Below, piece after piece: positions 133 through 44,600 of a stretch of 64,000 bases of DNA. The notes beneath the pieces are model-generated. The model made no database searches and was not told the origin of the DNA. It was given only the letters and a program-made list of their open reading frames with translations. How positions within the stretch are numbered: position 1 is the first letter of the stretch; each line of letters starts with the position of its first letter. Origin of the DNA: Halomarina rubra (lineage in GTDB: Archaea; Halobacteriota; Halobacteria; Halobacteriales; Haloarculaceae); the NCBI RefSeq assembly GCF_023699475.1, contig NZ_JALXFV010000008.1, forward strand, positions 456,757 to 520,756. The letters are read 5' to 3'. The translations under genes were made by a program, and so were the position numbers.

Positions 133-2409
133 CTATTGGAAGGTTCTGCTGACCTGTTCGCGGTCCTCGGGCGACTCCCCGGAGTTGAACCGCTCTTCGA
201 TCTCGTCGTAGCGCTGGCGGGTCTCCTCGGTGACCGAGGCGCGCACCTCCTCCAGCGCCTGCTCGAAGTGGTCCATCGTGATGCGGACGTTGCCGACCGA
301 ACCCTCGATGTTCTCCTTGGTCGCGTCGTCCATCGATGTGATGAACTCGCGGGTGGCGACGAGCGCCGCCTCGCGGGCGACCGCCTCGATGTCCGCGCCG
401 ACGTACCCCTCGGTCTGACGAGCCAGCTTGTCGAGGTCGACGTCGTCTGCGAGCGGTTTCCGCTCGGTGTGGACCTGGAAGATGGCCCGGCGGGCGTCCT
501 CGTCCGGGACGGGGACGTGGACGTGGCGGTCCAGTCGCCCGGGGCGCAGCAGCGCCGAGTCGATGAGGTCCGGCCGGTTCGTCGCGGCGACGACCACGAC
601 GTCCTCCAGCTCTTCGAGGCCGTCGAGTTCGGTCAGCAGTTGGGAGACGACGCGTTCGCCGACGCCCGAGTCGCTCATGTTGCGACCGCGCTGGCCGGCC
701 ATCGAGTCGATCTCGTCGAAGAACACCACGGTGGGTGCGTTCGAGCGAGCCTTCTCGAAGACGTCACGGACGCCCTTCTCGGACTCCCCGACGAACTTGT
801 TGAGCAGTTCGGGCCCCTTGATGGAGATGAAGTTCGAGTTGGCCTCGTTGGCGACCGCTTTCGCGAGCAGCGTCTTCCCGGTCCCCGGCGGGCCGTACAG
901 CAGGACGCCCTTCGCGGCCTCCATATCCATCGCCTCGAACACCTCGGGGAAGTCGAGCGGCCACTGGATGGTCTCGCGGAGGCGTTCTTTCGTGTCCTCC
1001 AGCCCACCGACGCGTTCCCAGGTGACGTCGGGCACCTCGACGAACACCTCCCGCAGCGCGCTGGGGGTGATGCCTTTCAGCGCCTCGCGGAAGTCGTTCT
1101 CGGTGACCCGTAACGATTCGAGGACTTCGGCGTCGATCTCGTCCTGTTCGAGGTCGAGGTCCGGGCGGATGCGCCGGAGCGCGTTCATCGCGGCCTCCTT
1201 GGTCAGCGATTCGAGGTCCGCACCGACGAACCCGTGGGTGTTCTCCGCGTAGGTGCCGAGGTCGATGTCGTCGGCGAGCGGCATGCCGCGGGTGTGGACC
1301 TGCATGATCTCCAGGCGACCCTCCTTGTCCGGGACGCCGATCTCGATCTCGCGGTCGAACCGACCGCCACGGCGCAGCGCCGGGTCGAGCGCGTCGACGC
1401 GGTTGGTCGCGCCGATGACGGTCACCTGCCCGCGCTCTTCGAGGCCGTCCATGAGCGAGAGGAGCTGGGCGACGACGCGGCGCTCGACGTCGCCGCTGGT
1501 CTCGCCACGTTTGGGCGCGATGGAGTCGAGTTCGTCGATGAAGACGATGGCCGGCGCGTTCTCTTCGGCCTCCTCGAACACCTCACGGAGCTGTTCTTCG
1601 GACTCGCCGTAGTACTTCGACATGATCTCTGGGCCGGAGATGTCGGTGAAGTACGCGTCTATCTCGTTGGCGACGGCCTTCGCCATGAGCGTCTTCCCGG
1701 TGCCGGGTGGGCCGTGGAGCAGGACGCCTTTCGGCGGTTCGATGCCGAGTTGGCGGAACAGTTCGGGGTGGCGCATCGGCAACTCGATCATCTCCCGGAC
1801 CTGTTCGAGTTCGCCGTCGAGCCCGCCGATGTCCTCGTAGGTCACCGAGGGCGACCCGCTGGTGGCGGTTGCGCTCCCGCCCGTCGATATCTGTTCGGCG
1901 GGCTTCTCGCTGACGTTGACCTCGGTGGAGTCGGTGACGACGACCGTGCCGTCGGGATTCGTCTCGGCTATCTTCAGCGGGATGCGCTGGCCGCTCATCG
2001 AGGAGAGCGGACCGAGTCCCAGCGAGAAGGGGACGGTCTGCCCCTTCGTGACGGCCTGCCCGCTGAGTTTGTCGCGGATGTGGCTGCCGATGTTCCCGCG
2101 GATGCGGAGGTTCTGGGGGAGCGCGACGGTCACCTGCTTTGCGGGTTTGACGTCGGCCTTCTCCACCTCGACACGGTCGTCGATGCCGACGCCGGCCTCC
2201 TGGCGGAGGCGGCCGTCGATGCGGATGACGCCGTCGTCCTCGTCCTCGGGGTAGCCCGGCCAGACGCGCGCGACCGCACGCCCGTCGGAACCGCTAATGA
2301 GGATGTAGTCCCCGTTCTCGAGGTCGAGGTCGTCCATCGCGGCGCGGTCGATGGCCGCGAGGCCCCGTCCGGCGTCCTTCTGTTTCAGGGGTTTGACGGT
2401 GAGTTTCAT
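133..2409 (-). CDS. cdc48: Cdc48/VAT-type AAA+ ATPase
   Basis: This 758-aa hexameric unfoldase extracts and unfolds proteins, and in archaea is thought to feed the proteasome. An N-terminal double-psi barrel/Cdc48 domain (about 1-170) precedes two AAA modules. D1 has Walker A GPPGTGKT at 233-240 and Walker B Asp292-Glu293. D2 has Walker A at 506-513 and Walker B Asp565-Glu566. Length and architecture match the archaeal family, and both ATPase sites look intact. Its ATG overlaps the stop of the 77-aa gene upstream as ATGA, so the pair is probably co-transcribed and translationally coupled from a promoter near 2666-2673. Confidence 0.97.
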
Positions 2410-2639
2410 TGGCTCACTTCGACGGTGACGACGCCGTTTTTGATAAACGCTTGCGCGCGGCCGGCCGGAACCGAGAACTCGTACTGGTCGTCGCCGACGA
2501 CGACCATCACCGTCCCGTCGACCACGTCAACGTCCGCGTCGACCCCAGCACCCAGGTCCGCAGCGAACACGGTCCGGTCGCTGTAGTCGTACCGGCGAAG
2601 CGGTCCATCGCCCTCGGAGATGCGTTGCTGATTGGTCAT
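2406..2639 (-). CDS. Small protein upstream of cdc48 (DUF7127-like)
   Basis: This 77-aa acidic protein is predicted to be mostly beta strand. It contains a compact core ([16 protein letters not shown]) and ends in alternating hydrophobic strands, somewhat like a small Hsp20-type sandwich. It looks like the haloarchaeal family catalogued as DUF7127, but that is from memory and not verified. Its TGA overlaps the cdc48 ATG. The TATA-like TTAAATAC on the minus strand (2673-2666) sits about 30 nt before its ATG. Linkage to cdc48 suggests a role as adaptor or partner of the unfoldase, which is inference only. Confidence 0.8.
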
Positions 2640-3760: not shown

Positions 3761-4693
3761 TCAGAGCGTGGGTGCTTCGTCCCGCCGCGCCGCCCACGTC
3801 GTGAGGTAGTGCGCCCAGTAGCCAGAACACCGGCCGTAGCGCTCGCCGAGGCGTTCGAGGTGGTCGTCGGAGGCTTCGGGGAGGCCGTACAGCTCTTCGA
3901 CGGCCGCCCGCAGGCCGGGGTCGTGGAGCGGCGGGCGGTCCGTGCGGCCGAAACCGTGGACGGCGACGTACTCCGCGGCCCACGCGTCGAACCCCCAGAT
4001 GGACTCCAGGCGGTCGAGCAGTTCGGGGGTGTCCAGGGTCGAGAGCGCGCTGGTGGCGAACGCCTCGGCCGTCGCGACCAGCGTCCGCGCTTTGTGCTCG
4101 GGAAACAGCCTCTCGACGACGGGTGCACCCGTCAACAGGAGTCGCGGCGTCGGGAACAGGAACAGTGAGTCGGTGTGCGTCGACCCACCGTCGGCAGCGA
4201 CGTCGGAGCCGTCGTAGTCGGGCGGTGGCCGCTCGACGACGCGCCCGACCGACGTGACGAGTTCGCGGCGCTGCTCTCGGACGACGTCGGTCGGCGTGCC
4301 GCGCGCGAGCGCGGCCCAGCAGGCCGCCTCGAAGGGCGTGGGGAACCGGACCTGGTGGTAGCCGTCGAGCGTGTCGAGGACGCGACGGAACGGCGGGTCG
4401 TCGGCCGCCGCCGCGTACAGCGGTTCGAGGTCGTCCGAGAGCGAGAGGAACGCTCCCAGCCAGTCCGCGACCACGCGGTCGTCACCCGACTCCTCTATCC
4501 ACTCGACCGTCGCGTCGAGGGTCGTCGTGTCCCGGCCCTCGCGGACCGTGGCGAGGAACGGTCGCTCCTCGGCGAACCCGCCGACGACGACGTCCTCGTC
4601 ACTGCACACTCGCTCGTCCGCACAGGGGTCGAACCCCGATAATGTCCGCAACGACTGCTCGAAGTCGTACGGTTCGGTCGCGTGCAGTTCCAT
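3761..4693 (-). CDS. AlkA-like HhH-GPD DNA glycosylase
   Basis: This 310-aa protein is a probable DNA-3-methyladenine glycosylase 2 family enzyme, removing alkylated or deaminated bases. The FPTPFEAACWAALARGTP segment (about 117-134) and a helix-hairpin-helix region around 225-260 (WGFDAWAAEYVAVHGFG) match the AlkA layout. The aligned catalytic aspartate is Asp258 in PLHDPGL. The hairpin Gly-x-Gly is less canonical here (GFDAW), so a divergent specificity is possible. The gene is monocistronic. A TATA-like CTTATC lies about 26 nt before the ATG, consistent with a leaderless transcript. Confidence 0.8.
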   Translation of the reverse strand: MELHATEPYDFEQSLRTLSGFDPCADERVCSDEDVVVGGFAEERPFLATVREGRDTTTLDATVEWIEESGDDRVVADWLGAFLSLSDDLEPLYAAAADDPPFRRVLDTLDGYHQVRFPTPFEAACWAALARGTPTDVVREQRRELVTSVGRVVERPPPDYDGSDVAADGGSTHTDSLFLFPTPRLLLTGAPVVERLFPEHKARTLVATAEAFATSALSTLDTPELLDRLESIWGFDAWAAEYVAVHGFGRTDRPPLHDPGLRAAVEELYGLPEASDDHLERLGERYGRCSGYWAHYLTTWAARRDEAPTL

Positions 4694-4875: not shown

Positions 4876-5682
4876 TCAGTAGATGTCGTCGAGTTCTGCC
4901 TGGGTGTGGCTGTGTTCGTCGGCGGGGAACTCCCCGGCCTCGACGGCGGCCTTGTAGTCCTCGACGGCGCGTTGCATCTCCCCGCGGACGTCGCCGAACG
5001 CCTTCCCGAACGGGGCGACGCGCTCGGAGAGGCCGACGACCTCGTCGACGACGAGCACCTGACCGTCGCAGTCCGGGCCAGCGCCGATGCCGATGGTGGG
5101 GATGTCGAGGCGTTCGGTGACGATGCGCCCGAGGTTTGCCGGGATGTGTTCGAGTACGAGCGAGAACGCGCCGGCCTCCTCGTGGGCCTCCGCGAGGTCG
5201 ACGATGGCTCGGGCGCTCTCCTCGTCGGTCCCCTGGCGGAACAGACCGGTCTCGTTCTCACCCTGTGGCGTCAACCCGAGATGGGCCTGGACGGGGATGC
5301 CCAACTGCGTCAGTCGGCGGGTCAGCTCGACGGTGTGCTCGCCACACTCCAGTTTGACCGCGTCGGCGTCGGCCTCCTTCAGCATCCGCCCGCAGTTCTC
5401 GATGGAGGTGGCCTCGTCGACGCCGAACGAGAGGAACGGCATGTCGGCGACGACCAGCGCGTTCTCGGTGACGCGACTCACGGCGGCGGTCCTGCTCAGC
5501 ACGTCCTCGACGGTGACCGGGAGCGTCGACTCGTGACCCAGTCGGAGGTTGCCCATCGAGTCGCCCACGAGGATCATGTCGATACCCGCCTCGTCGACGA
5601 CGGCGGCGTCGGGCGCGTTGTACGCCGTCAGCATCGTGATAGGCTCCTCGCCGGCCTTCTCGCGGATGTCCTTTGCCCGCAT
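4876..5682 (-). CDS. panB: 3-methyl-2-oxobutanoate hydroxymethyltransferase (PanB)
   Basis: This 268-aa TIM-barrel enzyme transfers a hydroxymethyl group from methylenetetrahydrofolate to 2-oxoisovalerate, giving ketopantoate for CoA synthesis. Family signatures are near the N-terminus (MLTAYNAPDA, then ILVGDSMGN with the metal-binding Asp) and later in GIGAGPDCDGQVLV. The ATG at 5682 fits the family length and lies about 27 nt downstream of a minus-strand TATA (CTTTATC, about 5707-5713). An upstream in-frame start at 5721 would place the TATA inside the coding region. Confidence 0.95.
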   Translation of the reverse strand: MRAKDIREKAGEEPITMLTAYNAPDAAVVDEAGIDMILVGDSMGNLRLGHESTLPVTVEDVLSRTAAVSRVTENALVVADMPFLSFGVDEATSIENCGRMLKEADADAVKLECGEHTVELTRRLTQLGIPVQAHLGLTPQGENETGLFRQGTDEESARAIVDLAEAHEEAGAFSLVLEHIPANLGRIVTERLDIPTIGIGAGPDCDGQVLVVDEVVGLSERVAPFGKAFGDVRGEMQRAVEDYKAAVEAGEFPADEHSHTQAELDDIY

Positions 5683-22182: not shown

Positions 22183-22256
22183 GCCAAGGGAGCTTGGGTG
22201 GTTCAAGCACTCGATTTGTAATCGAGAATACGTGGGTTCAAATCCCACCCTTGGCT
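22183..22256 (+). tRNA. tRNA-Thr (anticodon UGU)
   Basis: A 74-nt tRNA. Acceptor GCCAAGG (22183-22189) pairs with CCTTGGC (22249-22255), discriminator T. The anticodon stem CTCGA/TCGAG encloses TTTGTAA, giving TGT. The T-arm is GTGGG-TTCAAAT-CCCAC. CCA is not encoded. The chromosomal gene order ends here and virus-type genes begin, so its 3' end is the probable integration site (attL). Confidence 0.95.
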
Positions 22257-24214: not shown

Positions 24215-26122
24215 TTACTGCGGGAGTTCGACGGTGGCGTCTCCGCTCGTGATTTCTGCCACGCGCGATCGCATGTACTCCTGGAGGTCGTCGTCACAGC
24301 AGTAGATGTAGCAACCCTTCATGCCGCGGGTCATCAGCGTTCGATAGGTGTTCTTGATGATCTCGTCAGCCAGTTCTCGCGCATCATCCGGCCGCTCCTT
24401 GGTCATCTTCTTCATCCCGTGGACCGACCGGTCAGCACTCGCTCGCGCTTCGTGGTCGGTGACCAGTTCGCCATCCTCGTACCGCAGGTCGTCACCGATG
24501 ATGACGCCGACGTAGTCGAATTCGAGCCCCTGGCTGGTGTGGATACAGCCCACCTGGTCGACCGACCCTTCGGCGATGGCCCACGGGTCGTTCGCCTCGA
24601 GATTCCAACTGCGTTCGTAGTCGCCGATTGTGATGTCCATGGACTCGGCATCGGGCTTACTCTCTTTCTCCCAATCCCAGCAGTACCCAGCAACGACCCG
24701 GGAGAGCCGGCCGTCCTCGTTTCTCGCTTCGATGGCATCGTGCAACTCCTGAGGTGAGTCGAACACCCGAACGTCGTACTTGACATCCTCCTCCATCGGG
24801 ACGGCCAATTCCCGGATGTCGAGGACGTCCTCGAGCCAGTCGATGTAGTCCTCGGAGCCGGCACACCGGAGTTGCGACGTCAGCGACCGTTTGGTTACCT
24901 CGGCACCCAACTCGGCGGCGTGTTTCTCGATCTCGTCGATGGAGCCGATGTCCTTGATGTGGACGCGCTGGGTCTCGTCGATGAAGAAGACGGAGAACTG
25001 GGCCGCGTTGATGATTTCCATGATCTGGTTCTCGCCGTGGCCGAAGAAGTTGGACTTCTCGTTCAGGCGATGGGCTTCGTCGGCGATGAGCGCGTCCAGC
25101 GTGTTCGGTTCCTCATCGACGTAGCTGCCAGCGCCGGTGAACAGGTGGTTGATGTCCTTGACGAGCATGTCCCCCCTGAGTTTCTGCTCGTAGACGTCTC
25201 GGGGCGCACTGTTCTTCGAGACGTACTGCGCGGTCAGGTCCTGCTGGAGGAGTTCGACGAGGATGTTGATGGCGACGACCGTCTTCCCCGTTCCGGGGCC
25301 TCCTTCGACGATGAGGACGCGCTTCTGGTCGTCTTGTTGGGATTGGGCGGCGAGTTCGAGCGCCTTCTCGTAGACGACCTTCTGGGAATCGATGAGCGTG
25401 AACTCGTTGTTACCCTCGAGCATCTCGAGGATGGCATCCTGAAGTGACTTGCTGGGCGTTAGCGGGCTGGCGTCGATGTTCTGCAGAATCTCTCCGCCGT
25501 CGCCGACCTGGATCTTCGACTCGAGGAACGCACTGAGTTGCGCGACCTCGCCACGGAGGAACAGCGGCACCTCGTCGGTGTACTGCTGATAGGCTTCGTG
25601 TTCGAGTTCCTCGCGGGCTTCGGGCTCGTAGTTGTGGAGATACGCAATTGGATGGAGGTCGACGGGCGTCTCCTGGATGTACTGGTTGAAGTCCTCGAGG
25701 AACTGCGTGTACGACCACGCCTGATAGCACGGGTGAGTCGTCTCGCGGATATCGTTCCCGAGGTACGTCTCGATGATACCGTCTTTGTGGGCGACGGCCT
25801 GGGTGGACTCGCCTTCCCACTGTTTCAGTTCGACGATGATGGCGTTCGCGTTGCCGGCCTCGTCGTACCCGGAGATGATGAGATCGACACGGCGTGAGGT
25901 GAGGGGAATCTTGAACTCGACGGCGATACCCGCGTCGTCGGGGATGTCGCTGCTGGCGAGGACCTTGTAGACGTACTGGAAGGAGTTCTCCCAGGAGCGG
26001 ACCTCGCTGTCGCTCCCAACAGCGAGTCCCTGGTCAGCGTGTCCCTTCTTGATCTCGGCGACGAGCCGATCGTTCAGAACATCGTCCAGCAGCCCGGCCT
26101 TCGTATTCTCGTAGACAAGCAT
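24215..26122 (-). CDS. PD-(D/E)xK nuclease-DUF2075-type helicase fusion
   Basis: This 635-aa protein has two parts. Residues about 50-140 have a PD-(D/E)xK-like core (Asp80 then Glu98-x-Lys100, IIVELKQWE). Residues about 230-620 form a superfamily-1-like helicase/ATPase with Walker A GGPGTGKT (274-281), a DEAH box (348-351), TSQGLEFDYVGVI (529-541) and YRTLMTRG (593-600). This matches DUF2075/Schlafen-group-3-like ATPases. It starts 3 bp after the stop of the MazG-like gene, so the two form one operon. A nucleic-acid-targeting defence role is inferred. Confidence 0.85.
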   Translation of the reverse strand: MLVYENTKAGLLDDVLNDRLVAEIKKGHADQGLAVGSDSEVRSWENSFQYVYKVLASSDIPDDAGIAVEFKIPLTSRRVDLIISGYDEAGNANAIIVELKQWEGESTQAVAHKDGIIETYLGNDIRETTHPCYQAWSYTQFLEDFNQYIQETPVDLHPIAYLHNYEPEAREELEHEAYQQYTDEVPLFLRGEVAQLSAFLESKIQVGDGGEILQNIDASPLTPSKSLQDAILEMLEGNNEFTLIDSQKVVYEKALELAAQSQQDDQKRVLIVEGGPGTGKTVVAINILVELLQQDLTAQYVSKNSAPRDVYEQKLRGDMLVKDINHLFTGAGSYVDEEPNTLDALIADEAHRLNEKSNFFGHGENQIMEIINAAQFSVFFIDETQRVHIKDIGSIDEIEKHAAELGAEVTKRSLTSQLRCAGSEDYIDWLEDVLDIRELAVPMEEDVKYDVRVFDSPQELHDAIEARNEDGRLSRVVAGYCWDWEKESKPDAESMDITIGDYERSWNLEANDPWAIAEGSVDQVGCIHTSQGLEFDYVGVIIGDDLRYEDGELVTDHEARASADRSVHGMKKMTKERPDDARELADEIIKNTYRTLMTRGMKGCYIYCCDDDLQEYMRSRVAEITSGDATVELPQ

Positions 26123-29657: not shown

Positions 29658-30329
29658 GTGAAACGCCCCATGGGAGAACGCAACTACGCAGAGGAGTGTG
29701 GCGACTACGGCGGGTCGAACCGTGATGGCGAACCGTGTGGTCGGCCGGCCGGGTGGGGAACGGACTTCCCCGACGGCAAGTGCCGCCATCACCGCGGGAC
29801 GTCCCCCGACGGAACGAGCCACAACGACAACACGAACGCAGTCACGCATGGCCTGTACGCCCAGACGAACGCGACCTACCAACAGGTCCTGACCGACGAC
29901 GAACGCCAGCTCGTCGACGACATCTTCAGCGACTACCTGGCCGACTACGAAGCACGCCATGGCGAGGCGACGACCGGGACGAGAGCCGAGCTGTTCCGCA
30001 TCGCCGTCTCCTACGGCAAGCACGTCCACGCCGACCGATGGGCGATCGAGAAACCCGAGAGCCTGGAGTCGGGCAACGCCGCAGTCGACCGCGAGACGCA
30101 CGTCAGCGACGGTGGCGAGACGTACTACACCTACAAGGAGACGGTCGTCGCGAAGGGCCAGCGGGCACTCTCTCGAGACCGCAGGGCGTGGCTGAAAGAC
30201 CTCGGTCTCATGGGTGCGTCACCGGACGATCGCCAGGCGAGCGCACTCGAGGCGGGCCTCGACCTGACCCTCTCGACCGACGAGAAAGCTGCCCTCGATG
30301 GCACGTTCGACACCGAGCCCCAGACATGA
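29658..30329 (+). CDS. Terminase small subunit (putative)
   Basis: This protein of about 223 aa begins at GTG 29658 or ATG 29670. The N-terminal zinc-type motif (CGRPAGWGTDFPDGKCRHH) followed by NAVTHGLYA is typical of small-terminase N-termini in many archaeal and bacterial siphoviruses. A helical C-terminal part should oligomerise into the DNA-recognising ring. Its TGA overlaps the TerL ATG. Assignment rests on the motif plus position, not on a full-length match. Confidence 0.65.
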   Translation: MKRPMGERNYAEECGDYGGSNRDGEPCGRPAGWGTDFPDGKCRHHRGTSPDGTSHNDNTNAVTHGLYAQTNATYQQVLTDDERQLVDDIFSDYLADYEARHGEATTGTRAELFRIAVSYGKHVHADRWAIEKPESLESGNAAVDRETHVSDGGETYYTYKETVVAKGQRALSRDRRAWLKDLGLMGASPDDRQASALEAGLDLTLSTDEKAALDGTFDTEPQT

Positions 30330-31903
30330 GCCAGACAGACCAGGCGAGTGCCGCGGCCATCGCCGAGCGTAACCCGCTGGCCCACCCGGCAATCGCCTCG
30401 GTCCAACTGTTCGAGTATTCACTCCCCCCGGGCGACCATCTCAAGGAGCTGTACAATGCGCTGTGGAAGGCCATCGACGCGGACTTCCCCCACGCCCCGA
30501 AGAAGATTGCTCGCCTGCTCCCGCGTGGACACGGCAAAAGCGAGAGTGCGGGCGTCGTGTTTCCGACGTGGGTGTTGCTCACCCACCCGGACGTCCGCGT
30601 GGCCATCATCTCGAAGACGGCCAACATCGCGGGCGAGCGCGCCGGCAAGGTCGTCGACGCCATCGAGCGCTGGGCGCCGACGTTCGGCATCGACATCGAC
30701 AGTGCGGCGGGCCACCAACTGACGACTGCCGCCAACGACCACAAAGAGCCCTCGCTGAGTGCCTACGGCCTCGAGAGCCAGCTGACGGGCAAGCACTTCG
30801 ACGTCATCATCTGGGACGACATAGCCGACTGGGAGAACCAGCGTACCGAGACCCAGCGCCGGAACGTCCGGGAGTACTTTCGAGACTACACGAAGAACCT
30901 CGGCGACCCTGACAGCGTCCTCGACGGCGGGTTCGTTCAGGCGATGATTGGGACGCGAAAACACCCCCAGGACCTCTACGAGACGGACGTTCTCCACTCA
31001 GCGACGTGGGATGCGAAGGTCTCGAAGGCTATCCGTGAGACCGACTGGCCGCTCATCGAGCAACGGGCGTGGTCGGTTCGTGGCGACGACGGGGTTGTCT
31101 ACGACGACGTCGCCGACCTGCCGGCGGCCGTCAACCTCGCGAACAACGGCGTCATCCCGGAGCGCGACCTCACCGTCCTCTGGCCCGAGCACAAACCCCC
31201 GGCGTCACTGTTGTACGACATCGTCGACGGCGACGACTCACTGCCCATCTGGCGGCGTGAGAACCAGCAGGACCCCCACGCCCTGAGCGGCGAGGTGTTC
31301 AAATCGGAGTGGCTCACATACGTCGACGAGCTCCCCCACCCTGTATCGAGCTATCGTTGGGTGGCGGGGATGGACATCGGCCTCGTCGAGGACCTCCAGC
31401 AGGCCGCCGAGAACGACACCGATTACACCGCACTGGCGGTCATCGCCTGGAATCCCTCGGCCAATCGAGGCTACCTCACTCACCTCGCCCACCGCCGGGG
31501 CATGTCAGTGAAGGGGGCAGCGGACTGGGCGGTCGAGGAACTCACCGAGTACGACATCGACGCGATGCTCGTCGAGCAGAACGCCAACCGTGGCGTCGCC
31601 CAGCGTCTCCGTGATGAGACACCCATCCCCGCCGAGGGTGACACCTCGACGGGCAGCAAAGAAGAGCGGATTCACAACCTGGCCGCAGAGTTCGAGAGTT
31701 CCCAACTCCGCGTCGTCGGCGACCCCTCGAACGAGGAGTGGCGAGACTTCGAGACGCGTGAGTGGCTGCAGTTTCCCAACGCCGCTCACGACGACCGCCT
31801 CGACGCGATTGAGATTGCAATGCGTAACGTCATGACCGACACAGGATCTACAGCCGGCGCCTTCGGCACGCCAGCGACAGGGAGGTCGAGCAGATGGCGA
31901 TAG
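30326..31903 (+). CDS. terL: Terminase large subunit
   Basis: This 525-aa packaging ATPase-nuclease has Walker A-like PRGHGKSE (Lys71, Ser72) and Walker B IIWDD (Asp164/Asp165). The C-terminal RNaseH-like nuclease shows Asp350 (GMDIGL), Glu417 (LVEQNA) and the DDRLD block near 489-493. The ATG at 30326 overlaps the TerS stop as ATGA. It acts at the portal to translocate and cut concatemeric DNA. Both active centres look intact, so the provirus may be functional. Confidence 0.92.
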   Translation: MSQTDQASAAAIAERNPLAHPAIASVQLFEYSLPPGDHLKELYNALWKAIDADFPHAPKKIARLLPRGHGKSESAGVVFPTWVLLTHPDVRVAIISKTANIAGERAGKVVDAIERWAPTFGIDIDSAAGHQLTTAANDHKEPSLSAYGLESQLTGKHFDVIIWDDIADWENQRTETQRRNVREYFRDYTKNLGDPDSVLDGGFVQAMIGTRKHPQDLYETDVLHSATWDAKVSKAIRETDWPLIEQRAWSVRGDDGVVYDDVADLPAAVNLANNGVIPERDLTVLWPEHKPPASLLYDIVDGDDSLPIWRRENQQDPHALSGEVFKSEWLTYVDELPHPVSSYRWVAGMDIGLVEDLQQAAENDTDYTALAVIAWNPSANRGYLTHLAHRRGMSVKGAADWAVEELTEYDIDAMLVEQNANRGVAQRLRDETPIPAEGDTSTGSKEERIHNLAAEFESSQLRVVGDPSNEEWRDFETREWLQFPNAAHDDRLDAIEIAMRNVMTDTGSTAGAFGTPATGRSSRWR

Positions 31904-33351
31904 AACACCCTGACGACCCCGACGGGCCGACGCGGGCTGACTTCGGTGGGCTCCGGAACCAGGCGGTCCTCGCCGCTGCGCTCGGCATGGCCTATGGCGG
32001 GAAGCGAGACTACTACGACAACTTCGCCTGGGACCGCTCGCCCGATGTCGAGGACTACTACGCGTCGTTCCTCCGCAACCCGCATGCTAACGCAGTCATC
32101 TCCATCCCCGCGGAGACGGCCTGGCGGAACGCCCCGGAGTACGTCGACGAGAAGACCTCTGAGGCAGGGGCGGAGACGGACTTCGAGTCCGACATCGCCG
32201 ACGTCGTCAACAGCACACGACTGTGGCACTACTGTAAGCGCGCGCACCTGCTCTCTCGCATCGGGCAGTTCGGGCTGTTGATGATCGGGTGGGCCGACGG
32301 CGAGGACCAGCAGTTCGCCGCGCCCGTCGACCGAACGGCACTCAGCCAGAACGACCCCGGCGACGCAATCGAGTGGCTCCGCCCGCTCTCACAGCTCTCG
32401 GTCACGGATATCCGGTGGGCAGACGCCAGCAGCGGCCGGTGGGGGCATCCCGAGTACTATCGCATCGACTTCTCGGACGAGAACGACGCGGGGACAGCGG
32501 GTGTCTTCGGCGCTGGCCAGCGCGAGCAGTGGGTCCACCACAGTCGCGTCATCCACATCGCCGGTGGACTGCTCGACGACGAGGTCCGGGGGACGCCTGC
32601 GCTCGAACCGATCTACAACACGGTCACCGACCTGCAGAAACTCGAAGGCAGTGCGGCGGAGGCGGCGTACTCCATCGCCCGGCCGGGGATTCACGTCAAC
32701 ATCGACAAGGACGCGAGCCTGCCGGAGGGGGCTGAAGAGCAGATCGATGCGGAGACCGACGCGTACGTCAACGAGTTCCAGCCGATGATGCGGACCCAGG
32801 GCGTCGAGGTCAACCGCATCGCGGGTGACCAGATCGACCCGGAACAGATCAAGCAGGCACTCATCGAGACGCTGAGTGAATCGACGAAGATTCCACAGAA
32901 GATTCTGAAGGGCAACGAGAGCGGGGAGGTCGCGGGGTCACAGGACCTCCGGGAGTTCTACGGTGCCATCGCCGAGCTCGTCGAACAGGTCTGTGACCCC
33001 CAGCTCGTTCGGGAGTTTGCCGACCGGCTCATTCGATACCAGGTCGTCGCCCCACCGGCCGGTGATGATTACGACGTCGAGCGTGAGCCACTCGCCGAGC
33101 AGGACGAGTTGGAACAGTCGGAAATTCAGGAGAACCGGTCGACCGTCGTCAAGAACATCGCCTCGTACGCGCCCGGCCTCGACAGCGCAGCCATCGCGCA
33201 GTTCATCGAAGACGGCGAGTTCCCCGAGATGGACGACACCGACCAGCCCGCCCCGGTGAACCCTGCGGAGGACGCAGGCGCACCGCCCACCGGCGCGACA
33301 CCGCCAGCGCTCGCGAATGGTGGGGAGGGCGGGTCGGGCGACGATGGCTAG
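31894..33351 (+). CDS. Portal protein (DUF1073-like)
   Basis: This 485-aa head-vertex protein forms the dodecameric portal. Signatures include YYASFLRNPHANAVIS, WVHHSRVIHIAGG and IPQKILKGNESGEVAGSQD, all common in DUF1073-type portals. The last 60 residues are disordered and Gly/Pro-rich. It overlaps TerL by ten bases in another frame, and its stop overlaps the MuF start. Confidence 0.87.
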   Translation: MAIEHPDDPDGPTRADFGGLRNQAVLAAALGMAYGGKRDYYDNFAWDRSPDVEDYYASFLRNPHANAVISIPAETAWRNAPEYVDEKTSEAGAETDFESDIADVVNSTRLWHYCKRAHLLSRIGQFGLLMIGWADGEDQQFAAPVDRTALSQNDPGDAIEWLRPLSQLSVTDIRWADASSGRWGHPEYYRIDFSDENDAGTAGVFGAGQREQWVHHSRVIHIAGGLLDDEVRGTPALEPIYNTVTDLQKLEGSAAEAAYSIARPGIHVNIDKDASLPEGAEEQIDAETDAYVNEFQPMMRTQGVEVNRIAGDQIDPEQIKQALIETLSESTKIPQKILKGNESGEVAGSQDLREFYGAIAELVEQVCDPQLVREFADRLIRYQVVAPPAGDDYDVEREPLAEQDELEQSEIQENRSTVVKNIASYAPGLDSAAIAQFIEDGEFPEMDDTDQPAPVNPAEDAGAPPTGATPPALANGGEGGSGDDG

Positions 33352-34171
33352 CGGCCCAACTCGGACGAAGGGGCTCCGCAACGAGTACCGCGTCCGACTC
33401 GCCAAACCGTTCCGTCGACTGAAGGGCGCGGTCCGGACGACCGTCATCGACAACGATGCCTTGGGACTCGGCTCGGACGTCGATGCACTCATCGCCGCGG
33501 CCGACGACATCCAGCCGGCGGGTCGGTTCTCGTTCAGCACGGATGCCGAGGCACAAGACGAGTTCAACGACTGGCTGGAGCGTCAGGCCAACCGTGGCAT
33601 CCTCGAGGTGATGCGTCGTCAGCGGATTCGGAATGGCGAGCACTTCACCGCTCGCTACGTTCGGAGCGCCTACTCACGCGGCGTCCAGTACGCCGACGCC
33701 CGACTGCGGGACCAGGGCGTCGAGCCGCCGGATGCCAGCCTTCGATCGACGTTCAACCAGCCTGTCCACGCCGACACGCTCGAACAGTTGTACACGCGGT
33801 CGTACGACGAACTAGCGACGGTCACCTCGGACATGCAGACCGCAGTGCGGCGGGAGCTGACGACCGGGTTCTCACAGGGGTGGAATCCTCGGAAGACGGC
33901 TCGGAATCTCACCGACCGCATCGACAAGATTGGCATCACCGACGCCGAGCGTCTGGCTCGGACAGAGACGATGCACAGCCACAACTCAGCCTCACTCCGG
34001 CGGTACGGCCAGGTGGGCGTCGAGAAGGTGCGCGTCATTGGGTACTCACCGTGCCCTGAGATCTGCGCGCCAATCGTCGGAAACGGCCCGTACCCACTCG
34101 ACGACATCCCGCTGGGCGGACCACCACTGCACCCGAACTGCCGGGGTGCTCTGGCTCCGGTCGTCAACTAA
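33344..34171 (+). CDS. MuF-like minor head protein
   Basis: This 275-aa head morphogenesis protein sits between portal and protease. The C-terminal MuF block is plain: LARTETMHSHNSASLRRYG, a Cys pair in CPEICAP, and GGPPLHPNCRGALAPV. The N-terminal half is Arg-rich and helical. MuF proteins are packaged in small numbers and may aid DNA ejection. Start at ATG 33344 overlaps the portal stop; an earlier in-frame ATG at 33317 would lie entirely inside the portal gene. Confidence 0.87.
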   Translation: MASGPTRTKGLRNEYRVRLAKPFRRLKGAVRTTVIDNDALGLGSDVDALIAAADDIQPAGRFSFSTDAEAQDEFNDWLERQANRGILEVMRRQRIRNGEHFTARYVRSAYSRGVQYADARLRDQGVEPPDASLRSTFNQPVHADTLEQLYTRSYDELATVTSDMQTAVRRELTTGFSQGWNPRKTARNLTDRIDKIGITDAERLARTETMHSHNSASLRRYGQVGVEKVRVIGYSPCPEICAPIVGNGPYPLDDIPLGGPPLHPNCRGALAPVVN

Positions 34172-34185
34172 CTGGTTCAGCAATT

Positions 34186-35442
34186 ATGACAGACTCAGAC
34201 ACCATCGAGACGTACGTCCGCGACCACGCCGAGGTCCGCGAAACGATTGCGGCGGCCGACCCCGACAACGGGCCGTGGCCCATCCACGGTGTCGCCGTCG
34301 CGGATGGCGACGTCCTCCACAACAACAAGGGCGAGCGGATTCTGATGACGGCGGAGCAGCTCGCCACTGCCCAATACTCACAGGCAGCGTCGAAGCTGAC
34401 GAAAGACCACCCCGACTACGAGGGCTCGCCGCCCGTCGACGCGACGGTCGGGAACAACTCGATGCACTACTCCGCGGAGGGGGAGGCCATCGTCTACGAT
34501 GCGACCACCCACGACGAGGACATCGCGGCCGGGGTGAACGGCGAGACGTACGGCGTCTCGATTCACGCCAACTTCGAGAAAGGCCCCCGCGACCCCGAGA
34601 CAGGGGCGTACGTCGCCCAGAACATCGTCCTGCACGACCTCAGCGTGGTGAGCCTGGGCGATTCGCCGAGCAACACCGCCCAGTTCGGCGGGCGCTCGGA
34701 TCTCGCCGCATGGGCCAACGAAGGCGGGCTCGAGGCCGCCGTCGCCGAGGGGGCGATGGCCGATGGCGATGAGGCGGACGTCGAAGGGTTGGTTCGGCGA
34801 CTCGCCAACCGACTCGGCCTCATCGAAGGGGCAGCCGACGGCATGGCGGTCGACGCAGACCAGGGCGATAGTCGAGCCGGCGAATCCGGGCGCGACGCGG
34901 ATGCAGACTCAATGAGTAACAAAGACGACAACATCGAGTTCATCACTGCCAACTCCCACTTCACCGAGGAGCTGCTCGCAGAGATGGACGCCGACGCGGT
35001 GGAACAGACACGCGACCTCGTGGACTCGGAAGACGACTCCACGGACGACGAGGACGGCGGCAGCGACACTGACGCCGACGGTACGGACGACACGCCGACC
35101 CAGATCGGCGAGATGTCGCCCGAAGAGCTCGGAACGGCGCTGCGCGAACAGGGCTTCGTCACCGAGGACGACGTTGGCGACATCGCCGAGGCGGCGAACG
35201 AACACGCCTCGGATGCCGAGAAGGCCGACGAGGTCATCGCGGCCTCTGAGGACTACACCGAAGACGACCGCGAGGAACTCCTCGCCTCGCCGTTCCTCGA
35301 CCGTATCCACACCAAGGCGACCACGCCCGGTGCAGCGCCGATTCCCGGCGTCGGCGGTGGCCGCGACACTGCTGAAGCGGCGGTCGGTGGGAGTGATGGC
35401 GAGTACAACGCAGATGACTTCTCCACGGGGGTCGCCGAATGA
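34186..35442 (+). CDS. Capsid maturation protease with scaffold region
   Basis: This 418-aa protein has an N-terminal protease-like domain (about 30-185) with IHGVAVADGDVLHNNKGER, KDHPDYEG and YGVSIHANF, like DUF2213-type prohead proteases. An acidic, low-complexity helical scaffold follows (about 190-400), with long Asp/Glu/Ala runs. The fusion matches other phages that make protease and scaffold from one gene. The catalytic Ser/His assignments are not certain. Confidence 0.78.
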   Translation: MTDSDTIETYVRDHAEVRETIAAADPDNGPWPIHGVAVADGDVLHNNKGERILMTAEQLATAQYSQAASKLTKDHPDYEGSPPVDATVGNNSMHYSAEGEAIVYDATTHDEDIAAGVNGETYGVSIHANFEKGPRDPETGAYVAQNIVLHDLSVVSLGDSPSNTAQFGGRSDLAAWANEGGLEAAVAEGAMADGDEADVEGLVRRLANRLGLIEGAADGMAVDADQGDSRAGESGRDADADSMSNKDDNIEFITANSHFTEELLAEMDADAVEQTRDLVDSEDDSTDDEDGGSDTDADGTDDTPTQIGEMSPEELGTALREQGFVTEDDVGDIAEAANEHASDAEKADEVIAASEDYTEDDREELLASPFLDRIHTKATTPGAAPIPGVGGGRDTAEAAVGGSDGEYNADDFSTGVAE

Positions 35443-35924
35443 GCCTCGATACGCCGAACTCGGTGGTCGCGGAGATCTTCGACAACGAGCCCAAGGAGCG
35501 GGAAGGGTTCGCAACGGCCGAACTCCGCCCTGGGATGGGCGTCACGTTCGACACCTCCGGAGAGGCCAACGACGTCTCACCCGCAGGTGTGAACTCACGA
35601 ACGACGTACGTGGTTCGCGTCCCACCCCAGACCCTGAGCGCTGCGTCGCTGAATTCGATGGACACCAGCCCCATCGACGCGACCATCGACGCGAACGACC
35701 ATCTCTACACGTTCGGGTTCCTGCGCTTCCAACAGGCCCGGTGTCGCGTCGCGTCGTCCTCGACGGCGAGCGTCGGTGACGACGTGGGCTGGAACAGCAA
35801 CGGCGAGCTCTCCGACGTCCAGACGGACGGGACGACCGCCCTGACGACGTTCGTCGGGCAGGTCCGAGAACTCGTCTCCGACGCGGATCTCGACAACGAC
35901 ATCGCGGTCGTGGAGTTCTACTAA
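35439..35924 (+). CDS. Capsid decoration protein (putative)
   Basis: This 161-aa beta-rich protein lies directly before the major capsid gene, overlapping both neighbours (ATGA at 35439, TAATG at its end). Position and a probable beta-tulip core (GFATAELRPGMGVTFDTSG) match capsid decoration proteins. No direct family recognition. Confidence 0.65.
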   Translation: MSLDTPNSVVAEIFDNEPKEREGFATAELRPGMGVTFDTSGEANDVSPAGVNSRTTYVVRVPPQTLSAASLNSMDTSPIDATIDANDHLYTFGFLRFQQARCRVASSSTASVGDDVGWNSNGELSDVQTDGTTALTTFVGQVRELVSDADLDNDIAVVEFY

Positions 35925-37078
35925 TGAGTTCTGACGCACACACCGTCACACACGACGACTTCCAGGCCGGCGCATCGGACGAGCACATCACGGCGTTCTT
36001 CAACCCGATGAAGACCTACCGTGAGCGTGCGCTGAAGCAGATTCGCGCCCAGTCGGGCTGGTCGCCCGACGTGTGGACCAGCCTCGACGCGGCGGCGGGA
36101 ATCGCGACCACCGACGCGGATGGCGAGATGGTCGAGGCCGCCTCGCCGATGCCCTACCGGATGGGCATCGACTACGAGATGGAAGGCCTCGACGAACAGT
36201 TCCGCCGCTCGACGGTCATGGACGTCCTGTCGGGGTCGGGCTTCGGCATCTCGTCTGACCTCTCGAGTTACGTCTACGTCCGGACGCTCACGAACGGGCG
36301 GATGGACGCCGACACGGCGATGGACATCCGTGGCGAGACCACCCAGGACCGAGACCGCAACGGCATCGATGGTGTCGCCCAGCCGCTCAACTACGTCACG
36401 TACGAACTCGGCGGTCGGGAGATGGAGGTCAAGCGCGCCTACGGCGAAGACCCCGAGGCCCGCCCGGCACGAGAGGCGCGCCGGGCGCTCAACCGCCGCG
36501 AACACGAAGTCCTCTACAACGGGTGGGGTGGGACGTTCGAGATCGACGGCCTGAGCTTCACCGTCGGCGGCCTGGACAGCACGAACACGGACAAGGTGCT
36601 TCAGGCGCCGAACAGTTCGGGCTGGAGTACGGCCGACAACGTCCTCTCGGACGTCGACGCGCTGCACAGTACCATCGAGCAGCAGACGGACGTCGTTGAC
36701 GAGAACGACGTCCCGCTGGTGTCGCAGGTGGGTGGGCTGGTGATGGTGCCCTACAAGCTGTGGGGCAGCGTCATGCGCCAGAACTACGAGACGAGTGCGA
36801 CTGACGAGCCGCTCATCGACCGGCTGAATCGCAAGTACCCCTACCTCACCTGGGTGCCGGCGCCGCGGCTGGACAGCGACACGGCGATCATGCTGCTCAA
36901 CGACCCGCGGTACTTCGGTGTCGTGAACGCCCAGGGTGTCACGAACACGGCGTGGGATATTTCGGGAGGTGCCGCGCGCAAATTCCGATTGGTGTCGAGT
37001 CGCATCCCGTGGGTTCGCACCCAGCCCGACGGGATTAACGGCATCGCTCGCCTGACCGGCATCTCGACGGGGGTCTGA
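35924..37078 (+). CDS. Major capsid protein, HK97 fold
   Basis: This 384-aa protein follows protease and decoration genes, as HK97-type capsid genes do. Stretches such as EVKRAYGEDPEARPAREARR, a long spine-helix candidate, VMVPYKLWGSVMRQ and TAIMLLNDPRYFGVV are typical of DUF2184-like encapsulin/HK97 capsids. No N-terminal delta domain is obvious because the scaffold is fused to the protease. It forms the icosahedral shell. Confidence 0.85.
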   Translation: MSSDAHTVTHDDFQAGASDEHITAFFNPMKTYRERALKQIRAQSGWSPDVWTSLDAAAGIATTDADGEMVEAASPMPYRMGIDYEMEGLDEQFRRSTVMDVLSGSGFGISSDLSSYVYVRTLTNGRMDADTAMDIRGETTQDRDRNGIDGVAQPLNYVTYELGGREMEVKRAYGEDPEARPAREARRALNRREHEVLYNGWGGTFEIDGLSFTVGGLDSTNTDKVLQAPNSSGWSTADNVLSDVDALHSTIEQQTDVVDENDVPLVSQVGGLVMVPYKLWGSVMRQNYETSATDEPLIDRLNRKYPYLTWVPAPRLDSDTAIMLLNDPRYFGVVNAQGVTNTAWDISGGAARKFRLVSSRIPWVRTQPDGINGIARLTGISTGV

Positions 37079-37079
37079 G

Positions 37080-37418
37080 ATGGTCCGCGTTGAGGTCCGC
37101 GCCGAGTTCTTCGATGCTGGGGAGGGCGTCTACCATCGGAGTGGCGACGAGATCGACGTCTCCGAGTCGTTCGCCGACGAGCATCCGTATCTCGTTTCGC
37201 CTGTCAAGGACGACGAGTCGGAGGTCGTCACCGAGAGCGAGGACCTCGACGAGGCGTTCCAGCCCGAGGCGTTTCTGGACCGGACCCTCGACGAGGGCGT
37301 CGTCGACGACATCGAAGACGGTGCGGTCGACGAGTTCCTCGACCAAGTCGAAGCACACGCCGAGCGAGATGGCGTGAAAGAGGCCATCGAGGCCCGCCGC
37401 GAGAATCTGGAGGAGTAA
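37080..37418 (+). CDS. Acidic head protein, unknown
   Basis: This 112-aa, strongly acidic protein starts two bases after the capsid stop. The N-terminus (VRVEVRAEFFDAGEGVYH) is a beta hairpin; the C-terminal half is helical. It could be an extra head or connector component. Unrecognised. Confidence 0.7.
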   Translation: MVRVEVRAEFFDAGEGVYHRSGDEIDVSESFADEHPYLVSPVKDDESEVVTESEDLDEAFQPEAFLDRTLDEGVVDDIEDGAVDEFLDQVEAHAERDGVKEAIEARRENLEE

Positions 37419-37424
37419 CTGCAC

Positions 37425-37799
37425 ATGGCCATCACCGTCGACGAGTCGAAGATTCGCGGGGCGCTTGACGCCAGCGAGTCGGAGTACCCCGATAGCGAAC
37501 TCGCCTTCGAGAAGGAGTTGGCCGAGACGCTCGTCAACGACGACCTCGCGCCCCACGCCGCGTCGGGCCAATCCGACCGGCTGGCACTCGTCGGGGCGCT
37601 CATCGCCGCGGCGTACGTCGACGACGACGGTGACGTCACGCAACTCCGACAGGGCAACCGGGCCGTCAGCTTCGACAGTGACTCGGCGCTGAGCCACTGG
37701 CGGAAAGCACTGCAACTCGATCCAACGGGCCGACTCGGTGACTTGGAGAAGTCGACGGTTCGCTTCTCGACACCAGACGTGAGAGGAGGCGGCGACTGA
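37425..37799 (+). CDS. Head-tail connector (gp6/DUF4054-like)
   Basis: This 124-aa helical protein (ESKIRGALDASESEYPDSE, then ALVGALIAAAYVDDDGD) sits at the usual adaptor position after the capsid gene. A DUF4054-like head-tail adaptor that caps the portal is the best reading. Moderate confidence. Confidence 0.62.
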   Translation: MAITVDESKIRGALDASESEYPDSELAFEKELAETLVNDDLAPHAASGQSDRLALVGALIAAAYVDDDGDVTQLRQGNRAVSFDSDSALSHWRKALQLDPTGRLGDLEKSTVRFSTPDVRGGGD

Positions 37800-37802
37800 C
37801 CG

Positions 37803-38189
37803 ATGCCAGGCGCGAAGATGACGGGCGTGCTCTCGCTGACGGAGACGCTCGACGACATCGCCGAGCGCTGGGGCGTCGGGACGGTCACTTGGACAATCGG
37901 CACCGGCGTCGAGTACAGCGTGTTCATAGCGTTCGGGACCTCTCGAATGGCTGCCCGGCCGTATCTCCGTCCGGCGCTCGAAGAGGCATCCCGTAAGCTC
38001 GATCAGTTCGCCGCCAGCGCGAACAGCCTGGCTGAACTCGTCAGGAACATCGCCCTGTTCGTCGAGGGGCGTGCGAAAGAGATTCTCACCGAGAAAGACG
38101 CGGTCGACACCGGCACGCTGCGGGGGAGCGTCACTGCGCGCCCCGCCTCCGGTGGCACCCCCGCCGCCATGGCATCCATCTCCGTATGA
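37803..38189 (+). CDS. HK97 gp10-like neck/tail-completion protein
   Basis: This 128-aa protein carries the gp10-family hallmark YSVFIAFGTSRMAARPYLRP, which places it among tail-completion or neck proteins. A purine-rich GGAGG lies upstream of the ATG at 37803. Its end overlaps the next start as ATGA. It probably joins the connector to the tail tube. Confidence 0.8.
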   Translation: MPGAKMTGVLSLTETLDDIAERWGVGTVTWTIGTGVEYSVFIAFGTSRMAARPYLRPALEEASRKLDQFAASANSLAELVRNIALFVEGRAKEILTEKDAVDTGTLRGSVTARPASGGTPAAMASISV

Positions 38190-38614
38190 CGTCTGGCAAC
38201 GTGGGTGAGCGCCTCGCTGGCTTCGACGACGCGTTCACGAATTGGGTCGAAGACCCACTGACGGTGCGAAACTTCGTCGAATCCGCCCAGCCCGACAGCC
38301 AGGGCGACTACCGCCGAGTAGACCACCCGGACAACCCGATTCAGACAACCGGCCAAGTCGAGCTTCCGACGACACCGGCTGCCGAGCAGGCACCGACGGG
38401 CCGCGAAGAGTCCGCCGATGTCGAGATCATCCTCCCCGACGACGTCCTCGTGACCTCGGGCGGGGTGGACGACGACGCGGGCAACTACCTCGCGTGGCCT
38501 TCGGAGATTGAGGCGCCCGACGGCCAGGTCTACACCGTCAGCAACGTTTTCGACGAAGGCAACGGCACGGTCCGCTGTGCGGCTGTCCACTCCGGCGAGG
38601 TCGATGACCGATGA
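38186..38614 (+). CDS. Head-closure-like protein (putative)
   Basis: This 142-aa beta-rich protein lies in the neck cluster between gp10-like and terminator-like genes. The core DVEIILPDDVLVTSGGVDDD with a late YTVSNVFDEG resembles head-closure/stopper folds, but only order supports this. Confidence 0.6.
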   Translation: MTSGNVGERLAGFDDAFTNWVEDPLTVRNFVESAQPDSQGDYRRVDHPDNPIQTTGQVELPTTPAAEQAPTGREESADVEIILPDDVLVTSGGVDDDAGNYLAWPSEIEAPDGQVYTVSNVFDEGNGTVRCAAVHSGEVDDR

Positions 38615-40822: not shown

Positions 40823-41640
40823 ATGGCATCTACACACAGCGACGGCAGTGAGGAACAGCACGACGACCCAACGCCCGACGACGCGGGGATGGTGTCGGTC
40901 GACGACGTCATCGTCTCGCGTGATGGTGACGGGAACGTCCTTCCTGAGAAGGTCTACGTCGAGGAGTTGGGCGGGCACATCAAGGCGCGCCGCCTGACGA
41001 AGAGCGCTCGCGATGAGTACATCATGCCGCTCCTGAGCGGCGAGGACATCACCGACGGGATGCTCGCCGACCTCTACGAGACTCACCTCGTCGAGCCCGA
41101 CCTCACGAACGATGAGGGCGAGGTGACTGCGGCGTTCGTCTCCGAGCAACTCGATCCCTCGATGGAAGACGGCCTGCTGTACGGCATCCTGCTCGTCTCC
41201 GACCTGGACGAGATCGTCGACCGCCTGCGGCGGTACCCGCGTGGGGACATCTCCGACGAGGAGATGGACCGGCTCAAGCGCCTCGACGAACTGCAGAGTC
41301 TGGGTGGTGACGACGAGGGAAAGTAGCCGGCCCGTCGCTCGAAACGGGCGAACTGAGCGACCTCTCGCGATACGAAGACGCCTGTCTGAGTTCGTACTTC
41401 CTCCACGCCAAGTGTGGCTACCAGTTCACGGACGGCCCGCTGGGCGACCTGACGCCCGAAGAAGAGAAGATGCTCTGGCGAGGGTTCGAACTGTTCGAGA
41501 AGCACTTCGGGCGGGGCGCAAAGAACCGAAAACGCGGATCGAGTGGCCCCAAACCCGGCCAGCATGTGACGTCGGGCGACCAGAAGGCCTGGAAAGAGTT
41601 CGTCGAGGAGAAGCGACGAGCCAGCGCAACGCGACCCTGA
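40823..41640 (+). CDS. Tail assembly chaperone with programmed -1 frameshift (G/GT type)
   Basis: The short form is 167 aa, ending at TAG 41324-41326. A heptamer GGGAAAG (41317-41323) lets ribosomes slip back one base, adding 105 residues (from GTA 41323 to TGA 41640) for a 272-aa long form. The extension has no start codon of its own, yet is clearly coding (SYFLHAKCGYQFTDGPLGD, then KAWKEFVEEKRRA). In lambda-like phages, G and GT bind the tape measure before tube assembly. A Shine-Dalgarno GAGGTGA precedes the ATG by six bases. Confidence 0.88.
41317..41349 (+). promoter_or_regulatory. Lambda-type slippery site with downstream stem-loop
   Basis: GGGAAAG (41317-41323), identical to the lambda G-T slippery heptamer, is in phase as G GGA AAG before the TAG. 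Six bases later a perfect 6-bp stem GCCCGT/ACGGGC (41330-41335 with 41344-41349) with an 8-nt loop provides the expected stimulatory structure. Confidence 0.85.
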
Positions 41641-41682: not shown

Positions 41683-44600
41683 ATGGCTATCAACGCAGAA
41701 CGACTCCAGGTGAGTGTCGAGGGTGGCGGCGGGGCCGACGACCTCGCGGGCGGGCTCGACAATCTCGCCGGCTCGGCACTGAACGCGCGACAGGCCGTCG
41801 GCTACCTCGGCATCGGGCTGGCAGCGCTGTCGGCTGGTGGCATCGCGGCGGCGACGAAGTCGGCGTATGACTTCGAAAGCGCCATGGCTGACGTCCAGAA
41901 GGTGACGTCGGCGGACACGGCCGCGCAGTTGGAAGGCGAGCTGATGAGCCTCGCCGAGACGATTCCCATCCCGCGACGCGAACTCGTCACGCTCGCTGAG
42001 CAGGCGGGGAAGTTCGGCATCGAGGGCTCGGAGAACATCTCGCGGTTCGTCGAGACGGTCGGGAAGATCGGCGCGGCGACTGACCTGGCCGCCGAGGAAG
42101 CTGGGACGCGCTTCGCGAAGATTGCAGGCGCGGTCGGCCTGCCCTACTCCGAAATCCAGAAGCTGGGCGATGCGACGAACAAACTCGCCGACTCGTTCAA
42201 GACCGACGCCGGGGAGATTTCTGACACCGCGGTCCGGGCGTCGAACGTTCTCTCGCAGCGTCTGGGCCTGGGTGCCGAAGAGACCCTGGCGCTGTCGGCG
42301 TCGATGAACGAGGTCAGCGCCTCGAGCCGACTGGCGGCGGGCGACCTCAAACGCGCTGCGGAGGCGATGATGGACCCCAAACGCGTCGGGGACATCGCCG
42401 GCGCGCTCGGCATGACGACGAGCGAGTTCAAGACCCTCCGGTCGTCGGACCCCTACGGCCTGATGCAGAAGATCGCGAAGGGTATGGCCGAGGGCGGCCA
42501 GAAAGCGACGGACCTCCAGGTCGCGCTGGGGACGCGTGCGGCACGGGGGTTCTCGAAGCTGGGGTCGAACGCCACCCAGACTGAGAAAGCGCTCACAGCG
42601 GCGAATAAGCAGTTCGAGGAGGGCGGCTCGCTGGCCCGCGAGATGTCGATTCGGACCGACACCGCGGCGGGAAAATGGCAGCTGTTCAAGAACAAAGTCC
42701 AGAACGCCGCGACGACGACCGGCCAGCGCTTCCTCCCCATTCTGAAGGACGTCCTCGGCGCGCTCAACACGGGTATCGGCGTCCTCGGCGACATCAACGA
42801 GGCGACCGACGGCTGGCTCGGCACCATCACACTCGTCGGCGGCCTGCTGGGTGGTGCAGTGATGGCCATCGGGGCGTTCGCTGGCGCGCTGAGTACGTCG
42901 ACCATCGCCGCCGCGGCCGCCTCCGGTGCCGTCGGAGCGCTCGGGACAGCGTTGACTATCCTGACCGGCCCCATCGGCATCGCCATCGCCGCGGCGGTCG
43001 CGCTCTACGCCGCGTATCGGACCAACTTCCTGGGTACGAAGGAAATCGTCGACGGGGCGATGGGTCGGATGCGGCAGATAATCGACACGCACATCGGCCC
43101 CATGATCAACAAGGTCGTCACGCTGGCGACGACCATCTACAACGCGCTGGCGCCAGTCGGGCAGTGGCTGATTACCAACCTCGGCCCCGCGTTCGCGATG
43201 GTCGGCCAGATGATTGGGGCGAGCCTGGACGCGACCATCGGTCAGATAATGTGGTTTGCGGACCTCGGCCTGTCGCTGTTCTCGGCGTTCCTGTCGTTGC
43301 TGAACGGTGACGTCGACGGTGCGCTCGCGGTTCTCGAAGGACTCTGGCAGCGGACCCTCGACGGCATCATCAACTGGATCAAGAGCTGGGACATCGTCAA
43401 ATGGCTCGGCAACAAGATTCTCGACGCCGTCGCCACCGCCGAGAAGTACATCAACAAGATTCCGGGGGTGCAGGTCTCGATGACCGACAAGGTCCGCGAG
43501 CAGATCAACAACTCCGGCATTGACGACGCGTACGGGAACACGTTCTCCCGGGCCGAGCAGCTCTCGAAGAACGTACTCAACCAGATTCGGACGAACAACC
43601 AGTCGTCGCTCAACAACCAAGAGCGGGACATCATGGCCTCTGGAATGCCGGAGGCGTACAAGCGCCAGCTCCGACAGTCGCGACTGAACGCTCAGAACGA
43701 GATGGGAATGATGCAAACGGCCAACGGCCAGTCGTTGTCGTCGATGTACACGCAGACGGGGCAAAGTCAGGTCCCGACGGCGTACAACGACCTGTTCTCC
43801 CAGTCGAAGCTGAACGCACAGACGCAACTGGGCGGTATCGAGATGGCCAACGCCCAGGCGCTCTCGGGGATGGAAACCCAGACCCGCCAGTCGAACCTCC
43901 CGCAAGCGACTCAGACGGTCTACCAGCAGTCCATCGAGAAACAGCGCGAGAAGCTCAAGCGACTCCGCAAGCGCCACAAACAGAACCTCAAGCTGTCGAA
44001 ACAGGACACCGAGAAGTCGAAGATGTACGAGGGGTTCGCCACGATGTACGCGAAAGCGGCGAACCGCCAGCAGGTGAAGCTGGACAAGATGGAGTCGAAG
44101 CATCACCGGATGCTGACGAACACGGAGTCGAAGACACGCAGCTGGTCGATGCCCACTGTGGTCCAGTCGAAGTACAACAGCGCCCAGAACGGCGCCATCG
44201 GAAAGGTTGCTGGGATGGAGCAGACCCACAGTCAGGGTCTCGCCTCGATGGAGACCGACACGCGCAACTGGTCGATGCCGACGGTTCTCGAAAGCAAGTA
44301 CAACAGCGCCCAGAACGGTGCCGTCGGCAAAATCGCCGGCATCGAACAGGGGCACAGTCAGGGCCTCGGGCAGATGCAGACCGACACGCAGAACTGGGGG
44401 ATGCCGGGCGACGTCAATTCGAAGTACGCGACGGCCGCGAGTAATCAGTCGACGAAACTCGGGGCGATGTACAGCGAGAACAACCGCCAGTTCACGAATA
44501 TGATGACGGACACGGCCGCGAAACTCGGGCAGATTCTCACGCAGATCACCACGCAGTTCGGGAACATGCTCAGCGTCATCACCAACCAGATGGGGGCCGC

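Follow-up and report, generated by a model that had tools for sequence, protein, structure and literature searches.

In phage lambda, the tail assembly chaperone G acts on the tape measure protein and T recruits the tube protein (PMC5009743). Among haloarchaeal viruses, -1 frameshifting at the chaperone locus has been reported for HVTV-1, HCTV-1, HCTV-2 and HCTV-5 (Sencilo 2013 and Pietila 2013, as cited in PMC5009743 and PMC8211752), with shift sites GGGAAAC in HCTV-1, AAAAAAC in HCTV-2 and GGGAAAG in HCTV-5 (PMC5009743); GGGAAAT in Hardycor1 and GGGAAAG in the provirus-like Natronolimnobius gene NGM69196.1 extend the series (PMC7911831), and for HF1-like viruses and HSTV-2 a shift in the +1 direction has been suggested (PMC5009743). 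The only demonstrated archaeal frameshift case is fucA1 of Saccharolobus (PMC8211752). The HCTV-5 record was checked, and its chaperone is deposited as a joined CDS whose site reads GAG GGA AAG, giving the heptamer GGGAAAG. Use of the lambda heptamer by a haloarchaeal ribosome is an existing proposal, for which a direct experimental test was not found in the frameshift literature examined. The -1 frameshifting considered here, including GGGAAAG, is a kind already known in haloarchaeal viruses, to which the window (the whole stretch of 64,000 nucleotides analysed) adds one member; the novelty that an earlier note had seen in a lambda heptamer in a haloarchaeal virus was anticipated by HCTV-5 and the Natronolimnobius gene.

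Judged from its sequence, the locus is very probably the G/GT tail assembly chaperone locus of a tailed haloarchaeal provirus, expressed by -1 programmed ribosomal frameshifting. The gene order is tube - G/T - tape measure, and the features of a lambda-type G/GT pair are found together: two overlapping open reading frames between the major tail protein and tape measure genes, an in-phase heptamer, a T domain lacking its own upstream start, and a slip site kept in relatives. The tail tube was named by position, following the gene order of HCTV-5, and its protein is conserved in 17 haloarchaeal genomes. Since the locus lies on a 1.0-Mb contig of a Halomarina-type chromosome, in a genome of 4.07 Mb, and has genes of the host near it, among them that for phosphoglycerate kinase (at 20509), it is taken to be a provirus rather than part of a free virus genome. 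A tRNA-Thr gene at 22183 was rejected as the integration site because its 3' end is not repeated within the window. Between this tRNA gene and the head genes is encoded a Schlafen group 3 helicase-like protein (24215-26122, minus strand; PF09848, E 5e-109), perhaps cargo or a defence function.

Table 1. Features of the chaperone locus and its surroundings (window positions) and of the two own-start relatives (positions in their own loci).
Feature	Positions	Strand	Details
Head and packaging module, same provirus	29735-38614	+	terminase 29735, portal 31894, MuF-like 33317, major head protein 35924, neck 37803
Probable major tail-tube protein gene (lambda V position), 452 aa	39453-40811	+	phrog_34360 (function unknown), E 5e-53
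Gene G, putative tail assembly chaperone, 0-frame product, 167 aa	40823-41326	+	synteny; weak fold match to tail assembly chaperones
-1 frame (T domain)	41311-41640	+	opens 41311; TGA 41638-41640
Slippery heptamer G_GGA_AAG	41317-41323	+	GAG GGA AAG TAG, in phase; identical in Halomarina oriensis L002
6-bp inverted repeat GCCCGT-8-ACGGGC	41330-41335 / 41344-41349	+	loop 8; proposed stimulator
Tape measure protein gene (lambda H position), 1147 aa	41683-45126	+	phrog_28, E 2e-55; PF10145, E 4e-13
G381 (L028), T with own ATG	3761-4614	-	ATGA overlap
G354 (L027), T with own ATG	1767-2637		11-nt overlap with G, +1 frame

The heptamer GGGAAAG, its phase and the TAG that follows (41317-41326 together) were confirmed as the earlier note had given them, the TAG at 41324-41326 being the end of gene G directly 3' of the heptamer. 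Its start-less -1 frame of 105 aa was likewise confirmed, for no ATG, GTG or TTG occurs in that frame from its opening up to 41470, and the first such codon, at 41470, falls inside the conserved domain. An in-phase GGGAAAN within 12 codons has a chance probability of ~0.0013 when codons are drawn from the provirus pool, and heptamers of the form X_XXY_YYZ stand in phase at only 4 of 6657 codon steps. A further site in phase, GGGAAAA at 42669-42675 within the tape measure gene and followed by an ATG in the -1 frame, is probably due to chance. The sequence GGTGGTGA at 41303-41310, ~6 nt 5' of the slippery heptamer, resembles a Shine-Dalgarno core and is not conserved, Halomarina oriensis having GGCGGAGA instead.

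Expression of the locus would proceed as follows. Most ribosomes would translate G (167 aa) and terminate at the TAG, and a minority, with tRNA-Gly(UCC) on GGA and a tRNA-Lys on AAG, would slip back one base to GGG AAA within 41317-41323. The post-slip reading is GGG AAA GTA GCC..., and the 105 additional codons (41323-41637) would yield a G-T fusion of 272 aa, with the predicted junction peptide ...DDEGKVAGPSLETGELSDLSR..., in which EGK is joined to VAGPSLETGELSDLSR at the slip site. By analogy with lambda, G would coat the tape measure protein and the T part would recruit the tail-tube protein; slippage in the cell, its efficiency and these roles of G and T are all predicted. The host encodes tRNA-Gly with anticodons UCC, CCC and GCC, tRNA-Lys with UUU and CUU, and tRNA-Asn with GUU. 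Re-pairing from GGA to GGG would need only wobble by the UCC species, whereas the move from AAG to AAA should depend on the UUU isoacceptor, and competition by CUU may therefore hold slippage low. The efficiency at AAG is probably low because only tRNA-Lys(UUU), not CUU, should re-pair well with AAA, and a low level of slippage would fit a product ratio in which G outnumbers GT.

HCTV-5 resembles the window in being a tailed haloarchaeal virus whose chaperone pair is flanked by the tail-tube and tape measure genes and whose site is an identical GAG GGA AAG; however, its G is longer by several codons beyond the slip site, the virus is free rather than a provirus, and its proteins were not retrieved as sequence relatives of the window proteins. 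Hardycor1 has a tail tube that is a true relative of the window tube (31% identity). For Hardycor1 and NGM69196.1 the published second CDS begins at an internal ATG, whereas here both are assigned to a larger family in which the Z base varies and start-codon alternatives occur. Phage lambda (NC_001416) shares the identical heptamer, its phase and the gene order V-G/T-H, but slips several codons before the G stop and not directly before it as in the window; no sequence similarity was found between the two, and the window host has two tRNA-Lys species able to read AAG.

Related modules were gathered by way of the tail-tube protein from 17 genomes of the order, Hardycor1 and HATV-3, and 14 viral contigs. 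Searches of viral contigs, phages and plasmids with the G, T or tube of the window gave no close match; the productive searches were those with the tail-tube protein over whole genomes and with the tubes of relatives over viral contigs. Thirty modules with a readable G/T pair were counted, representing 29 distinct tubes, and in 24 of these, the window and Halomarina oriensis among them, G carries an in-phase GGGAAAN close to its end and T lies in the -1 frame, an arrangement whose heptamer has a chance probability of ~0.001 per module. The Z base of the 24 is G in 8, C in 6, T in 9 and A in 1. This recurrence is the strongest evidence that the sequences offer for frameshifting, and it leaves the earlier proposal of a lambda-type -1 frameshift giving G and G-T chaperones in a strong position. 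Neither a heptamer nor a clear T start near the junction was found in L128, L129 or G378; in L128 (5231-5964) and L129 (5200-5936) T follows directly on the G stop, in the -1 frame, and the stop reads CCC TAG or CCC TAA.

The nearest named relative, Halomarina oriensis, shows 80% identity to the window over G and 78% over the T domain. Over the last 150 nt of G the two sequences differ by 0, 0 and 21 substitutions at the successive frame-0 codon positions, and over the T region by 20, 14 and 34 at those of the -1 frame, a third-position bias with p 0.0096. Both frames therefore look to be under selection at the protein level.

The perfect stem-loop of the earlier note fared less well: the 6-bp repeat and its 6-nt spacer from the heptamer are present, but a stimulatory role finds no support. 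A perfect 6-bp stem occurs at an equal distance after 2.6% of positions in this GC-rich provirus, folding energies set against dinucleotide shuffles gave z values of -0.13, +0.63 and +1.20, and a rival hairpin, UCGCUCG-AAA-CGGGCGA, competes with the stem. In Halomarina oriensis one G-C pair of the stem becomes G-U through one substitution, which also leaves the T-frame amino acid unchanged. Across 25 rows of relatives, the 45 nt past the spacer lie at a median 40th percentile of random windows, with clear downstream structure only in the G062/L124/L125/L126 group. As a conserved stimulator the stem-loop was rejected on these folding statistics, its energy being no better than that of shuffles and the element not being general among relatives.

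The identity of G and T as chaperones was also approached through profiles and predicted structure. Neither protein of the window matched a family in Pfam or PHROG, and no significant hit came from searching PDB profiles with G. The G model (mean pLDDT 72) consists of a beta hairpin followed by helices; it has no PDB match at E<0.001, and the four PDB structures that align to it at Z above 2, among them the tail assembly chaperone of HK97 (2ob9, Z 4.3) and YqbN (3klu, Z 5.2), are weak matches. Its best viral Foldseek matches include tail assembly chaperones, that of ChaoS9 at E 5e-3. The predicted fold is thus consistent with a chaperone and is no proof of one. Elsewhere in the family, the G chaperone of L136 (5236-5778) carries an insert with an apparent DnaJ-type CXXCXGXG zinc motif; one A3 member matches Pfam for the DnaJ-type zinc motif at E 4e-4, the CXXC insert being seen in the alignment.

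T might instead be made separately by termination-reinitiation after the G stop, as appears to be the case in G354 and G381, two relatives from the same genus. Starts suited to such a mechanism are present among the relatives, as an ATG within an ATGA overlap in G381, an ATG at an 11-nt overlap with G in G354 and a GTGA in G073, and in Haloferax volcanii reinitiation after termination at overlaps of the ATGA type has been established (PMC6728339). For the window this is nevertheless improbable, because the T frame lacks ATG, GTG and TTG until 41470, and in Halomarina oriensis until L002:6651, both past the start of the conserved core.

Still less probable is a -1 frame that is a remnant or spurious, whether it arose by a frame-disrupting mutation in a decayed provirus or through an error in sequencing. 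The locus does belong to a provirus, and decay is seen in some related modules, as in G280, where no G open reading frame follows the tube; yet the same junction is found in Halomarina oriensis and 22 other modules, including the isolated viruses Hardycor1 and HATV-3, and the codon-position bias extends over both frames. Realignment of RNA polymerase on the GGGAAA run, by which the frame would be changed in the transcript, is to be given equally little weight: the heptamer is a short homopolymer pair, but the codon phase GGA AAN is conserved, which fits tandem tRNA slippage, and known cases of transcriptional slippage involve runs of ~9 or more A or T.

G354 and G381 have homologous G (29-37% identity) and T (E ~1e-8) proteins, and no slippery heptamer occurs near the G/T junction of either. 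In G381 a TGA immediately precedes the ATG in the T frame (CAG TGA ATG), and a G-T fusion is therefore essentially impossible. The T N-termini of the two begin with a common MSR even though the frame relation to G differs, as expected if T is initiated independently. The earlier note had held that finding related viruses with a separate start for the second domain would speak against frameshifting; G354 and G381 are such relatives, but the frameshift reading of the window stands, because no usable T start is available there. In the tube tree, a single supported group, nested within the frameshifting lineages, unites the window, Halomarina oriensis, L131 (GGGAAAC), G354 and G381, so that by parsimony frameshifting would be ancestral and later replaced in G354 and G381. 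Among other modules, G073 has a GTGA overlap at the G/T junction and hence an available T start, and L125 and L126 (around 5610-5625) have a GGGAAAT slip site plus an ATGA start for T. It is likely that within one host genus T is made in two mutually exclusive ways, as a -1 fusion only (window, Halomarina oriensis) or from its own start only (G381, G354). What appears new here is this within-genus switch of decoding mode, with G354 and G381 lacking the slip site and T having its own ATG. T4-like phages, reportedly described by Vladimirov in 2022 as having a chaperone pair made without frameshifting, resemble G354 and G381 in this respect; the switch in G354 and G381 differs in lying within one host genus.

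A practical annotation problem arises where automatic gene prediction overlooks or shortens the second domain; public annotations start T at an internal ATG in Hardycor1 (L080, 6794) and HATV-3 (L081, 6622), with loss of the N-terminal part. If the two modes of T synthesis are as proposed, covalent fusion of T to G would be dispensable for tail assembly in this lineage, and L125 and L126 could be intermediates between the two decoding modes. Archaeal frameshifting is known from very few cases, and a family with a conserved GGGAAA hexamer, all four Z bases and non-slipping relatives provides a ready comparative set, one that bears on slippage by the haloarchaeal ribosome, on the role of the tRNA-Lys isoacceptors and on the need for the chaperone fusion.
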